From Rubrobacter taiwanensis (GTDB lineage Bacteria > Actinomycetota > Rubrobacteria > Rubrobacterales > Rubrobacteraceae): DNA of 64,000 nucleotides. Both the position numbers and the translations under genes were made by a program. Location: contig NZ_SKBU01000006.1 in NCBI RefSeq assembly GCF_004337705.1, positions 62,001 to 126,000 on the forward strand, read 5' to 3'. Below are positions 49,704-53,905 of this stretch, piece after piece (positions within the stretch are counted from its first letter, which is position 1; every line of letters starts with the position of its first letter). The notes beneath the pieces are model-generated. The model saw only the letters and a program-made list of their open reading frames with translations, made no database searches and was not told the origin of the DNA.

Positions 49704-50555
49704 TCAGACGAACTTCTTGTACACCCCAATATTCGTGGTATCGCGCACGCCCATCGCTTCCTTGAGCTCGTTGAGCGTGGCACCGCGCCGCAGCAGCCGG
49801 ACGGCGAAGGTGTGACGGAGCACCATCGGTGAGATGCGGGGCAGCCCGACCTGATCGCAGCGCTTCCAGAGCGCGTTCTGCAGGGTCTTGGAGGTGGAGA
49901 TGGGCCGGGCGGCGCGCCCCACGAAGAGCTCCGGCGTGTCGTCGGAGCGCAGGCTCAGGTAGCGGCGCAGGATCTCCGCCGCCGCGCGCGAGATGCGGCG
50001 GGTGCGGGCGTTCAGGTGCGAACCCGGCCCGCCGAGCCGGACCTGTCCGGCATCCAGGTCCACGTCGTCGCGCAGCAGCGCCCGCGCCTCGCTCACCGTC
50101 GCGCCCGTCTCCAGCATGAGGACGATGACCGCCGCGTCGCGGGCGGCGGTGAGGGTGTCCGCGGGGAAGGAGAGCAGGCGCTCGGCGTCCTCGTCGTCCA
50201 GGAAGGTTATCTGCTGGTCGAGCGGCTGGTGCATGGGCTCGATGGGGTCGAACTCCAGCCCGACGTCGGTGCCGGTGCGCACCCAGTCCAGGAAGCGCCG
50301 CACGGCCGCGTCTTTGCGGTAGACGGTGAAACGCTTGCGCCGGGCACCGAGCAGGTGGTTTCGGAACTCCATCACCCGGCCGACGCCCACGTCCCAGATC
50401 TCTACCACCCCCCGCTCCTCCAGGAACCGGGCGAACTCCCGCAGGTCGGAGCGGTAGAACTCCGCCGTGCGCGGGCTGGTCCCGGCGTCGTCGGCCAGAT
50501 GATCGGCGAACTTCTCCACGAGCTCGCGCACGCTCACGCCGCTTTCGACCGTCAT
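49704..50555 (-). CDS. Tyrosine-recombinase (XerC/D-like) homologue with degenerate active site
   Basis: A 283-residue protein with full XerC/D layout. A SAM-like N-terminal domain (residues 8-95: VEKFADHLADDAG, RTAEFYRSDLREFARFLEER) is followed by a catalytic fold (115-283). The active site is eroded. The first Arg (TGLRVSE) is T153 in TGATVSEA. No lysine occurs in the beta-hairpin region 165-222. The His of HxxR is M244 (SPMVLRHTF), with R247 kept. The H/W position is V270 (AMGV). Y279 remains. Strand exchange is doubtful, so it may be a DNA-binding or regulatory paralogue. ATG 50555 lies 7 nt after a TATAAT, suggesting a leaderless message. Confidence 0.85.
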   Translation of the reverse strand: MTVESGVSVRELVEKFADHLADDAGTSPRTAEFYRSDLREFARFLEERGVVEIWDVGVGRVMEFRNHLLGARRKRFTVYRKDAAVRRFLDWVRTGTDVGLEFDPIEPMHQPLDQQITFLDDEDAERLLSFPADTLTAARDAAVIVLMLETGATVSEARALLRDDVDLDAGQVRLGGPGSHLNARTRRISRAAAEILRRYLSLRSDDTPELFVGRAARPISTSKTLQNALWKRCDQVGLPRISPMVLRHTFAVRLLRRGATLNELKEAMGVRDTTNIGVYKKFV

Positions 50556-50562
50556 GGCACCC

Positions 50563-50568
50563 ATTATA
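50563..50568 (-). promoter_or_regulatory. -10 box (TATAAT) for the Xer-like gene, leaderless start
   Basis: On the minus strand TATAAT is followed by 7 nt and then ATG 50555. Transcription would begin at or next to the start codon. No Shine-Dalgarno sequence is present. Confidence 0.6.
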
Positions 50569-50606: not shown

Positions 50607-51305
50607 ATGCGTGAGAGATCTGGGAAACTACTCCCGCTGCTCTTCCTGGGCCTGCTGGCCGCGATCTGGGCCGCCGGAGCCCTTCGCGGCGAGACGGCCT
50701 CGGCGCAGCTCCGCTTCACAGAGGTGCGGGCGGCCGAGGAGCCGTCCACCACCTTCGTTCCCGCCAACGACGGGCTGCTGCTCGGCGAAACGAGCCCGGC
50801 CGAGCGCACGAGCGGCCGAACGCCGCCGGCGGCCGAACCCGTCCAGATCCCCCGGGAGCGAACACCAGACCCGGAGAGCCGGCATCCTGCCGCGGATCTC
50901 CGGCTCACCATCCCCCGGCTGGGGATAGCGGATCTGGCCGTTCCCACCGGATCGGGACAGGGGATGCTGGACCGGGTGGGGATTCTGCATCTGGAGCAGA
51001 GCGGCTACCCCTGGGAGCCGGGCTCGAACACGTACATCGCCGGGCACGCCATCGGCTACCCCGAGACCCGCATCCCCTACGTGTTCTACGAACTCGGAGA
51101 GCTGCGGCGGGGGGACGAGATCCTGCTCCAGGACCCTGCGGGCCGCACCTATACCTACCGGGTCTACGAGACGCTGGTCGTAGACCCGGAAGACTACTGG
51201 GTCACAGCTCCGGTCGCAGGCCGCACGATCGTCTCGCTCCAGACCTGCACCCCCATACCCTCCTTCGAGAAGCGACTGGTGGTGCGGGGCGAACTGGTCG
51301 GCTAG
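50607..51305 (+). CDS. Sortase (class D/E-like)
   Basis: A 232-residue transpeptidase: N-terminal signal anchor (about residues 8-27, LPLLFLGLLAAIWAAGAL), a Pro/Thr-rich linker (to about 95) and a sortase beta-barrel. The catalytic triad is visible: H147 in YIAGHAIG, C214 in SLQTCTPIP, and R223 in EKRLVVRG. The TLxTC-TP form resembles class E/D enzymes of actinobacteria. It would link proteins with an LPxTG-like or LAxTG-like signal to peptidoglycan or pili. No obvious sortase substrate is encoded in the window. It converges with the J-domain gene, sharing 4 bp. Confidence 0.9.
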   Translation: MRERSGKLLPLLFLGLLAAIWAAGALRGETASAQLRFTEVRAAEEPSTTFVPANDGLLLGETSPAERTSGRTPPAAEPVQIPRERTPDPESRHPAADLRLTIPRLGIADLAVPTGSGQGMLDRVGILHLEQSGYPWEPGSNTYIAGHAIGYPETRIPYVFYELGELRRGDEILLQDPAGRTYTYRVYETLVVDPEDYWVTAPVAGRTIVSLQTCTPIPSFEKRLVVRGELVG

Positions 51306-51727
51306 AGCTCGCCCCGGCGCATCAGGTAGCGCTCTATGGTGTCGTGGGCGGCATTTATCTCGGCCGTGATCTTCTCCGCGCGCCGCCGCTGCTCCGGGTC
51401 GGAGAAGCGGTCCGGATGGTACTTCTTGACCAGCTCGCGGCGGGCCTGATCCACGCTCTCAAGGCGGCTGTCCACGCGCAACCCCAGCCGGGCGTACGCC
51501 CTCCGAACCTCCTTCGGAGCGGTAGACCTGCGGGCCTTTGCGGCCTCGGTCCGCTCCCGCCACTCCTCGGAAGCCCCGCGCCAGGCCGCCCGGAACGCCC
51601 GCTTTACGTGCTCGAACTCCCGGCGGGCGTCTGAGGCGGCCTCCCTGCCGGGTGAGGAGTCCTCGCCCCGCTGCATGCCGGAGACGAATCCCCGCGCCAG
51701 ACGCCCGAGCCGCCGCGGGATGCTCAA
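51302..51727 (-). CDS. C-terminal J-domain (DnaJ-like) protein in the PspA operon
   Basis: A 141-residue protein: a charged helical N-terminal half (EFEHVKRAFRAAWRGASEEW) and a C-terminal J domain (about 75-135), with EVRRAYARLGL, the HPD motif at 104-106 in KKYHPDRFSDPEQ, and NAAHDTIERYL. It lacks the G/F-rich and zinc domains of DnaJ, so it is a class III J protein recruiting Hsp70 (DnaK) to a particular client. The start overlaps the preceding coiled-coil gene by 4 bp (ATGA), and the four genes from PspA on form one unit. The likely client is therefore PspA or its partners. Confidence 0.87.
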   Translation of the reverse strand: MSIPRRLGRLARGFVSGMQRGEDSSPGREAASDARREFEHVKRAFRAAWRGASEEWRERTEAAKARRSTAPKEVRRAYARLGLRVDSRLESVDQARRELVKKYHPDRFSDPEQRRRAEKITAEINAAHDTIERYLMRRGEL

Positions 51728-52305
51728 GAGCGCTCGCCCTCCTCATCCTCGGAGATCACCTCGGTCCTGTTCGGGTCGGAGAGAACCCGGGTGCTGTCCT
51801 CCTCCTCGAGGCCGAAGAACTCCCGCACCCGGTTCAGGTCGAGCAGACTCGCGCGGATGCGCTCAATGCGCTCCTCCTCGGCCCTCACGTCCTCCTCGCA
51901 CTTCTCCCGGGTGGCGTCTATCTCCTTGCGAAGGGAACGGATAATCTCATCCGCCGTGCGCTGCAGCTCCTCGATGCGCTCCTCGCCCTGCTCTATCTCG
52001 GACCGGAGCGCCTCCTCCCGGCCCCGGCTGGAGCGCAGAAACTCCCGGATGTCTACCCCGGCGGCCTCCAGCGTGCGCGTCACTATCTCGCGCGCGCTCC
52101 TGCGGGAGACGTCCCGGGGCAGGTTCTCGATAATCTCCACCGCCCGCTCGACGGAGAAGTCTCCCGACGCCCCGAGCCCTACCTCCTCTTCCGAGTAGTG
52201 CCTGGTCGAGCCCCGGCCCTCCTCACCCTCGGCAGAGCGGTAGAAGAGCCGGGAGAAGACACCCTCTCTGTGCCGGGTCTCGTCATCTCCTGCCACCGGC
52301 TTCAC
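51724..52305 (-). CDS. Acidic coiled-coil protein of unknown function in the PspA operon
   Basis: A 193-residue soluble protein. Residues 50-90 (SVERAVEIIENLPRDVSRRS, REIVTRTLEAAGVDIREFLR) look like a small helical domain. Residues 95-165 are a long heptad-rich coiled coil (EIEQGEERIEELQRTADEII, EIDATREKCEEDVRAEEERI), and the tail is strongly acidic. No signal peptide or membrane helix. It starts 5 bp after the two-helix membrane protein gene and overlaps the J-domain gene. No family was recognised; coiled-coil partnership with PspA is a reasonable inference. Confidence 0.72.
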   Translation of the reverse strand: MKPVAGDDETRHREGVFSRLFYRSAEGEEGRGSTRHYSEEEVGLGASGDFSVERAVEIIENLPRDVSRRSAREIVTRTLEAAGVDIREFLRSSRGREEALRSEIEQGEERIEELQRTADEIIRSLRKEIDATREKCEEDVRAEEERIERIRASLLDLNRVREFFGLEEEDSTRVLSDPNRTEVISEDEEGERS

Positions 52306-52310
52306 CCCCT

Positions 52311-53087
52311 CTAACTGCTGCCGCCCGCGGGCAGGTGCTCCGTGGCGCCGGATACCTCTCTCAGGCTCCGCCGGAAGAGCGCCACCCGGTCCCTCAGGTG
52401 CTCCAGGCTAGACTCCAGCACCACCGGCTCTTGAGCCTCCAGCGCCAGCACCTCGCCGCGCAGGCTGCTCACCAGCGCCTCGGCGCTCTCCAGCTGCGCG
52501 TTGATCACCCCTATGGCGTCCAGTGCCTCCCGGTAGCCGGCGAGCTCGCCCCGGCGGCTAGCCAGCGCGCTCTCGAAGGGCCGGCGCAGGGCGGGATCCC
52601 GCAGCTCGGAGAGATCCCGCTCCAGATCCCGGATCCGGCGCCGGAGCCCTTCGCGGTCTAGGCCTTCAAGGTAGCGCCTCAGCGCGCTGCGCCGGCGTGC
52701 CAGCTGCGCCATGCGATCGACCTCTTGCACGACGAGCAAGATCTCCTCCTCAAAGAGCGGCTCATACTCCTCCGGCAACAGCTCCAGGCTCTCCAGAAGC
52801 CCGGACTGCAGCTCGATGAGCCGCCGCATCTGCGGCGCGGCGAGCCGGTCCTCCCGCGCCACCGCCTCCAGAGCCCGCGCGTTGTGCCGCGCGCGGCGCT
52901 CCAGCTGGGTCTGCGCCCGCCTGCGAGCCCCGAGAACCCACCGCCCCGAGACCGCGATACCGGCCCCGGCCGCCAGAGCGAGCAGCGTCCACCCCTCGCC
53001 CACGGCCACGACTCCCACCGCGGAAGAGACGCCCAGAGCTCCCCACCGGGCGGCACGGCGTGCGGCGTCTACCGTTCGGCCGAACAC
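52311..53087 (-). CDS. Membrane-anchored coiled-coil protein of unknown function in the PspA operon
   Basis: A 258-residue protein with two adjacent N-terminal hydrophobic segments (about 15-32 and 34-50: GVSSAVGVVAVGEG, WTLLALAAGAGIAVSGRWVL). They form a membrane hairpin, followed by about 200 residues of charged helix (LERRARHNARALEAVA, RRYLEGLDREGLRRRIRDLE, VINAQLESAEALVSSLRGEV). No enzymatic motif. It lies 12 bp after pspA and 5 bp before the acidic coiled-coil gene. By position it could be the membrane receptor of PspA, a role held by unrelated PspB/C or PspM/N proteins elsewhere. Confidence 0.75.
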   Translation of the reverse strand: MFGRTVDAARRAARWGALGVSSAVGVVAVGEGWTLLALAAGAGIAVSGRWVLGARRRAQTQLERRARHNARALEAVAREDRLAAPQMRRLIELQSGLLESLELLPEEYEPLFEEEILLVVQEVDRMAQLARRRSALRRYLEGLDREGLRRRIRDLERDLSELRDPALRRPFESALASRRGELAGYREALDAIGVINAQLESAEALVSSLRGEVLALEAQEPVVLESSLEHLRDRVALFRRSLREVSGATEHLPAGGSS

Positions 53088-53099
53088 CAGCTCTCCATC

Positions 53100-53852
53100 C
53101 TAGCGGCCGGTCTCCTCCGGCCGCTCGCTCTCCCCGGCGGGCCGCTCGACCGTCTCCTCCTGAGGACCTTCCAGCTCCCCGGCGGACTTGAGGCCCATCT
53201 GAATCTCCATGAGTTCCAGCTCCCGCTCGGCCTCGAGCCGCTTCACGTCCACCTCGGCGGCCTGGATCTGGCGCTCCACCTCGCTGGTGCCCAGTTCGCC
53301 CACGGCCTCGGCCTCGTACAGCGACTGCCGCACGGCCTGCCGGGCCTTCTCCAGATCGCGGGAGGAGTCGGAGAGCGAGATCTGCGCCCGCGCCTCGTTC
53401 GCCGTCTGCAGGGCCCGCGCCCGCTGGTGCTCCTCCAGCAGCGCGGCCCGCTCCCGCACCACCTCGTTGTAGCGCTTCTCTTGATCGCGGAAGGCCCGCT
53501 CCATCTCCTCGGAGTTCCTGCGGGCGCTCTCCAGCCGGCCCTCGATCTCTGCGAGCTGGTTCTGAATCTCCTGCTTCTGCTGGATCACCTGCAGCGCCGC
53601 CTCCCGCTGGCCGCGTGCGGCCAGCTCCCGCGCCTGCCGCTCCCGGGCGGCGACGAGCTTGCGCTTCTCGGCCGCGTCGTTGGTGAGCATCTTCTCGTAG
53701 GCCATGGTCTTGGCCGCCGCGACCTGAAGCTTCTTCAGGTTGCTCAGCTCGTCCTGTACCGCATTCTCGAGCAGGACTTCCGGGTTGCGCTGCTCGACTC
53801 CGGAGATGAAGCGTCCGAAGAAGCCCCGGATAACTCTAAGTAGTCTGCCCAT
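53100..53852 (-). CDS. pspA: PspA/IM30 (VIPP1) family membrane-remodelling protein
   Basis: ATG 53852 gives 250 residues; a TTG six codons earlier is an alternative. An amphipathic N-terminus (MGRLLRVIRGFFGRFISGVE) is followed by the long helical hairpin of the PspA/IM30 family: NPEVLLENAVQDELSNLKKL, KMLTNDAAEKRKLVAARER, and further coiled coil to about residue 215, then a Pro/Glu-rich tail. PspA/VIPP1 proteins are bacterial ESCRT-III relatives that polymerise on stressed membranes. It heads a tight operon with two coiled-coil proteins (one membrane-anchored) and a J-domain protein. A TATAAT box lies about 50 bp upstream. Confidence 0.9.
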   Translation of the reverse strand: MGRLLRVIRGFFGRFISGVEQRNPEVLLENAVQDELSNLKKLQVAAAKTMAYEKMLTNDAAEKRKLVAARERQARELAARGQREAALQVIQQKQEIQNQLAEIEGRLESARRNSEEMERAFRDQEKRYNEVVRERAALLEEHQRARALQTANEARAQISLSDSSRDLEKARQAVRQSLYEAEAVGELGTSEVERQIQAAEVDVKRLEAERELELMEIQMGLKSAGELEGPQEETVERPAGESERPEETGR

Positions 53853-53905
53853 CGGCCCTGCTACCCCCAAGGATGGTAGAGATCTCTACGGCCCGTCCGG
53901 CTGCG

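Follow-up and report, generated by a model that had tools for sequence, protein, structure and literature searches.

Xer-type tyrosine recombinases, such as the dimer resolvases XerC and XerD and the archaeal enzyme XerA, carry the catalytic set R-K-H-R-H/W-Y and a C-terminal helix, alpha-N, that is used in recombinase assembly. This helix mediates the XerC-XerD and XerA-XerA contacts, and in XerA deprived of it recombination is prevented and higher-order complexes are weakened. In the tyrosine recombinase family, the loss of R-I, of the Lys and of both His makes strand exchange very unlikely. The 'XerD-like' proteins of streptococci (NCBIfam PRK02436) are Xer homologues encoded on the chromosome and believed to be inactive in recombination. 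Phage repressors, MrpR among them, already show that recombinase chemistry can be lost while the DNA-binding fold is retained. In MrpR, R-I, H-II and H/W are replaced (H/W by Val), recombinase activity is absent, and the Tyr that has been kept matters for DNA binding (PMC10516654).

In this study we focus on a degenerate Xer-type tyrosine recombinase, referred to as dXer, encoded in a window of 64,000 nucleotides (the whole stretch of DNA that was analysed, C49:62001-126000 of a 3.04-Mb assembly). The coordinates assigned to this gene in a preliminary description are correct, and the open reading frame runs on the minus strand (50555..49704), from a likely ATG at 50555 to a stop codon at 49704-49706, while the plus strand of the same interval is interrupted by an in-frame stop. 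The full-length two-domain XerC/D layout proposed there is borne out as well: both Xer domains are recognized above the Pfam cut-off (Phage_int_SAM_1, PF02899, E=1e-9; Phage_integrase, PF00589, E=1.2e-20), the protein can be aligned over its full length to XerD (1a0p, residues 13-279), and its predicted fold matches. XerC and XerD are also its best curated-model matches, at 114 and 107 bits respectively, far under the equivalog cut-offs of 335 and 330. The features of the locus are collected in Table 1.

Table 1. Position and strand of dXer, its conserved blocks and its immediate surroundings in the window.
Feature	Coordinates	Strand	Basis
dXer (degenerate Xer-type tyrosine recombinase), 283 aa	49704..50555	minus	Pfam and structure-sequence matches, orthologues, catalytic columns
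Near-invariant basic stretch RKRFTVYRKDAAVRRFLDWV, residues 73-92, N-terminal core-binding domain	50280..50339	minus	Alignment; model helix 75-95
Interdomain linker DPIEPMHQPLDQQI, residues 103-116	50208..50249	minus	12/14 positions invariant
dXer -10 box TATAAT, 7 nt before ATG	50563..50568	minus	Sequence and 29-locus comparison; TANAAT in orthologues
Sortase gene, divergent from dXer	50607..51305	plus	51 bp from start codon to start codon; locus comparison

Four of the six Xer catalytic residues are replaced in dXer (R-I by T153, K by P177, H-II by M244 and H-III/W by V270), R247 and Y279 being the ones retained, which leaves the R-K-H-R-H/W-Y set incomplete. The alignment to the intact Xer set thus returns the residues read in the preliminary description, including the lack of a hairpin Lys. 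The R-K-H-R-H-Y residues are complete in every one of the Xer proteins sampled for comparison, the 33 that come from other families of the phylum and the eight intact Xer-like ones of Rubrobacteraceae. With R-I, the Lys and both His gone, strand exchange by dXer is very unlikely. Moreover, the protein ends with Y-K-K-F-V, four residues past the Tyr, a point absent from the preliminary description; its orthologues have the same end, and at least 19 residues follow the Tyr in every other Xer/integrase protein compared. Because dXer stops so early, helix alpha-N is absent from it.

Orthologues of dXer, 67-76% identical over nearly the whole length, all belong to Rubrobacteraceae (the named records are from Rubrobacteraceae and Rubrobacter MAGs). 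The gene is present in 35 of the 39 genomes of the class examined, all from one family, and in all 22 of good quality (completeness of 90% or more, contamination of 5% or less); completeness is 60-79% in the four genomes that lack it. Across the phylum sample of 346 genomes, matches at E<=1e-45 came only from Rubrobacteraceae and no dXer orthologue was found elsewhere. A phage or plasmid origin was also considered and dropped: no close relative was found among viral contigs, and the matches listed from phage and plasmid collections all lie below about 33% identity. T153, M244, V270, R247 and Y279 are invariant across 30 aligned orthologues, and P177 is found in 28 of them. The dN/dS of close pairs is about 0.09-0.20 (Nei-Gojobori, one near-identical pair left out), a range that overlaps the 0.07-0.20 obtained from six sequences of the family's intact Xer-like gene.

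These data bear directly on whether dXer is merely a recombinase in decay. The absence of the C-terminal helix and of four of the six catalytic residues could point to a pseudogene; however, the identical changes are fixed in 30/30 orthologues (28/30 at the Lys position), every frame is open, the promoter is conserved and dN/dS lies far below 1. At the dXer locus, homologues with a complete pentad, the finding expected from simple decay, were not found. Since the substitutions are fixed, the orthologues near-universal in the class and dN/dS low, the pseudogene reading is refuted for Rubrobacteraceae and the probability left to it is negligible. Strong purifying selection maintains dXer throughout Rubrobacteria, and the proposal that it is a functional protein and not a pseudogene is supported by the comparisons that the preliminary description had called for among homologues.

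The most conserved of the dXer blocks compared is the basic stretch 73-93 (mean majority frequency 0.98, vs 0.86 in the intact Xer-like family), followed by linker 103-116 (0.96 vs 0.88). Over the catalytic box 240-283 the order is reversed, with 0.91 in dXer and 0.97 in the intact family; in this comparison the column holding the Lys of the intact family is out of register, the residue itself being visible in the catalytic-column alignment. The basic stretch 73-92 is the expected DNA contact region. Linker residues 104-113 have a pLDDT under 50, and because the linker is invariant yet devoid of predicted structure, sequence and model together suggest a contact site. The structure model of dXer as a whole has a mean pLDDT of 83.2 and a pTM of 0.65. 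Its top structural match is XerA (5hxy, Z 21.4), which is also a significant sequence match; XerH-DNA (Z 18.7) and Cre are matched as well. Over the whole length the rmsd is large, which a different relative placement of the two domains would explain; for single-domain matches it is about 2-3.3.

Over the catalytic domain, the dXer model also matches MrpR/YopR of the Bacillus prophage SPbeta (Z 13.6-13.8) and the repressor SroF of phage phi3T (Z 14.2-14.4). Like MrpR, dXer combines a tyrosine-recombinase fold, predicted in its case, with an incomplete set of recombinase residues, a Val at the H/W position and a retained Tyr. The repressors differ from it in belonging to phages or prophages and in their length of about 320 aa, and MrpR keeps the Lys, whereas dXer is chromosomal, fixed in a bacterial class, closer to XerC/XerD by sequence and without C-terminal helix. 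Identity between dXer and MrpR in the structure alignment is 11-12% over about 160 residues, and MrpR is not among the PDB sequence matches. XerC and XerD themselves resemble dXer in two-domain layout, length and predicted fold, but have the R-I, K, H-II and H-III residues and the alpha-N helix that dXer has lost. XerA differs in being an active recombinase that needs alpha-N for recombination. The match to the streptococcal PRK02436 proteins is marginal (20 bits, for a cut-off of 178); kinship with dXer can be claimed at the level of the common fold.

Since the strand-exchange residues and alpha-N are lost and MrpR provides the precedent of a repressor with a kept Tyr, the reading we favour, with moderate confidence as a whole, is that of an Xer-fold protein without recombinase chemistry that works as a regulator in the manner of MrpR/YopR. 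Its parts are not equally firm. dXer is very probably non-catalytic, and its sequence, its model and the analogy with MrpR make DNA binding likely; by the same analogy, its main job may well be the regulation of transcription. In the proposed mechanism, dXer, having permanently lost both the recombinase chemistry and the helix that builds the recombination tetramer, would clamp a specific DNA site through its N-terminal core-binding domain and its catalytic-domain fold, without cutting, as a monomer or small oligomer. Y279 would be retained for the fold or for DNA contact, not as a nucleophile, and dXer would act as a transcription regulator like MrpR/YopR. The first candidate target would be its own promoter together with that of the divergent sortase gene. 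The sortase cannot be the sole target, because one genome (G003, locus L162) keeps dXer without an adjoining sortase gene. The universal presence of dXer in the class fits a role in chromosome maintenance equally well.

The other Xer proteins of the family raise the question of whether dXer could instead be the non-catalytic accessory or regulatory partner of an intact Xer-like recombinase, either by occupying one arm of an atypical dif site or by timing the action of the intact enzyme. In the genome of the window, six Pfam integrase matches were found, five of them over the cut-off, these five being a 328-aa Xer-like protein with an intact catalytic set, integrases of 383 and 398 aa, dXer and a 78-aa fragment. 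The search for canonical xerC and xerD elsewhere, proposed in the preliminary description, gave a separate gene for this intact Xer-like protein, but not a canonical pair. Among intact Xer-like matches in Rubrobacteraceae genomes the protein is the principal one, and in several of these genomes its gene lies amid der-, apt-, hflX- and miaB-like genes (names read from translations). Nearly all members have two Xer-like proteins, which recalls the XerC/XerD pair. Against the XerD model the intact protein scores about 130-160 bits; against XerC and XerD together it reaches about 147-159, compared with 297-359 for the phylum Xer proteins scanned and 107-114 for dXer. In none of 36 Rubrobacteraceae genomes does any protein pass the XerD cut-off of 329.6, a strict threshold passed by only 4 of 14 control genomes. 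The standard dif core without mismatch was found in 0/7 Rubrobacteraceae genomes vs 43/73 genomes of other families in the same run; one such match to the canonical core is found in Rubrobacteraceae, in G030. With one mismatch allowed, the Rubrobacteraceae counts are near control, and the dif search in the family does not clearly exceed what the reversed pattern gives. However, the missing dif says little, since several other families lack the standard pattern too, although their Xer genes are intact. The genes for dXer and the intact protein are moreover unlinked, dXer lacks the helix through which XerC-XerD and XerA-XerA contacts are made, and the intact protein may need no partner, like XerS and XerH. 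A partnership of this kind is unlikely, though it keeps some credit. One pair of similar candidate dif sites, in G005 and G012, was dropped, having no flanking similarity. In the tree, the 33 phylum Xer proteins exclude both dXer and the intact Xer-like family, each of which sits on a long branch of its own; descent of dXer from XerC or from XerD was dropped as a placement, the deep join being unsupported (40/0) and subject to a long-branch warning. Searching the literature for Rubrobacter and XerC brought up no study of a Rubrobacter Xer system. As a separate observation, the intact Xer-like protein L001 (G000:C6:7349-8158) is divergent, at about 150 bits against the XerC/XerD models, and has an unusual box SPHSIRHT(A/V)G with RYIRR.

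That dXer might be a chromosome-architecture protein, for instance a sequence-specific barrier or unloader of SMC, has a precedent in Bacillus subtilis, where XerD unloads SMC at the terminus according to a work cited in PMC12322038. The universality and high conservation of dXer in the class would suit such a role, with the invariant linker as a possible contact site, but no smc, scpAB or parABS link was seen at the dXer locus, and we regard this role as rather improbable. A lingering ability to cut DNA in an unusual manner, for example by supplying its Tyr in trans to the catalytic centre of the intact Xer-like protein, would account for the invariance of Y279 and R247. Flp shares its Tyr in this way between its own subunits. 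However, XerA uses cis cleavage, the residues after the Tyr are missing from dXer, and MrpR equally keeps its Tyr, for DNA binding, with no recombination seen (PMC10516654), all of which makes cutting by dXer highly improbable.

Compared with the phage repressors, what sets dXer apart is that a chromosomal gene of this kind has become fixed in an entire class in which no match passing the XerD cut-off was found. This makes it a test case for the recruitment of Xer-fold proteins as regulators or as inert subunits in chromosome-dimer resolution. It is doubtful that the class has swapped the canonical XerC/XerD pair for one divergent active Xer and one obligate non-catalytic Xer; if it has, the dead subunit would mark or gate the dimer-resolution site or the terminus.

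The clean TATAAT promoter noted upstream of dXer is confirmed. In 28 of the 29 loci compared, a TANAAT box, which reads TAAACT in one of them, precedes the start codon with its end 6-8 nt away; the count is made up of 27 loci with an ATG/GTG aligned to residue 7 plus the ATG of the window, and the start of L162 is ambiguous. Because the box ends so close to the start codon, the dXer transcript is likely a leaderless mRNA. A lipoprotein-like open reading frame (window 55559, minus strand) has an CGGTAGAAT promoter just before its ATG, similar to the box of dXer orthologues, and for this reason the dXer box looks like an ordinary leaderless promoter. Comparison of the dXer-sortase intergenic region across loci in search of an operator revealed nothing conserved beyond the two -10 boxes, whose spacing varies, at about 20-28 bp where both are seen; this variable spacing argues against a fixed dimer site in the region. 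The divergent sortase gene adjoins dXer in 22 of 23 loci, L162 being the exception. It is followed in nearly all of the 23 loci compared by a DnaJ-domain gene, two coiled-coil-like genes and a PspA gene, and conservation is partial for a small coiled-coil-like open reading frame and gltB downstream. The DnaJ-domain/coiled-coil-like/PspA cluster (window 51302-53870) is itself conserved near the sortase gene across Rubrobacteraceae, its middle two genes being without confident family match.
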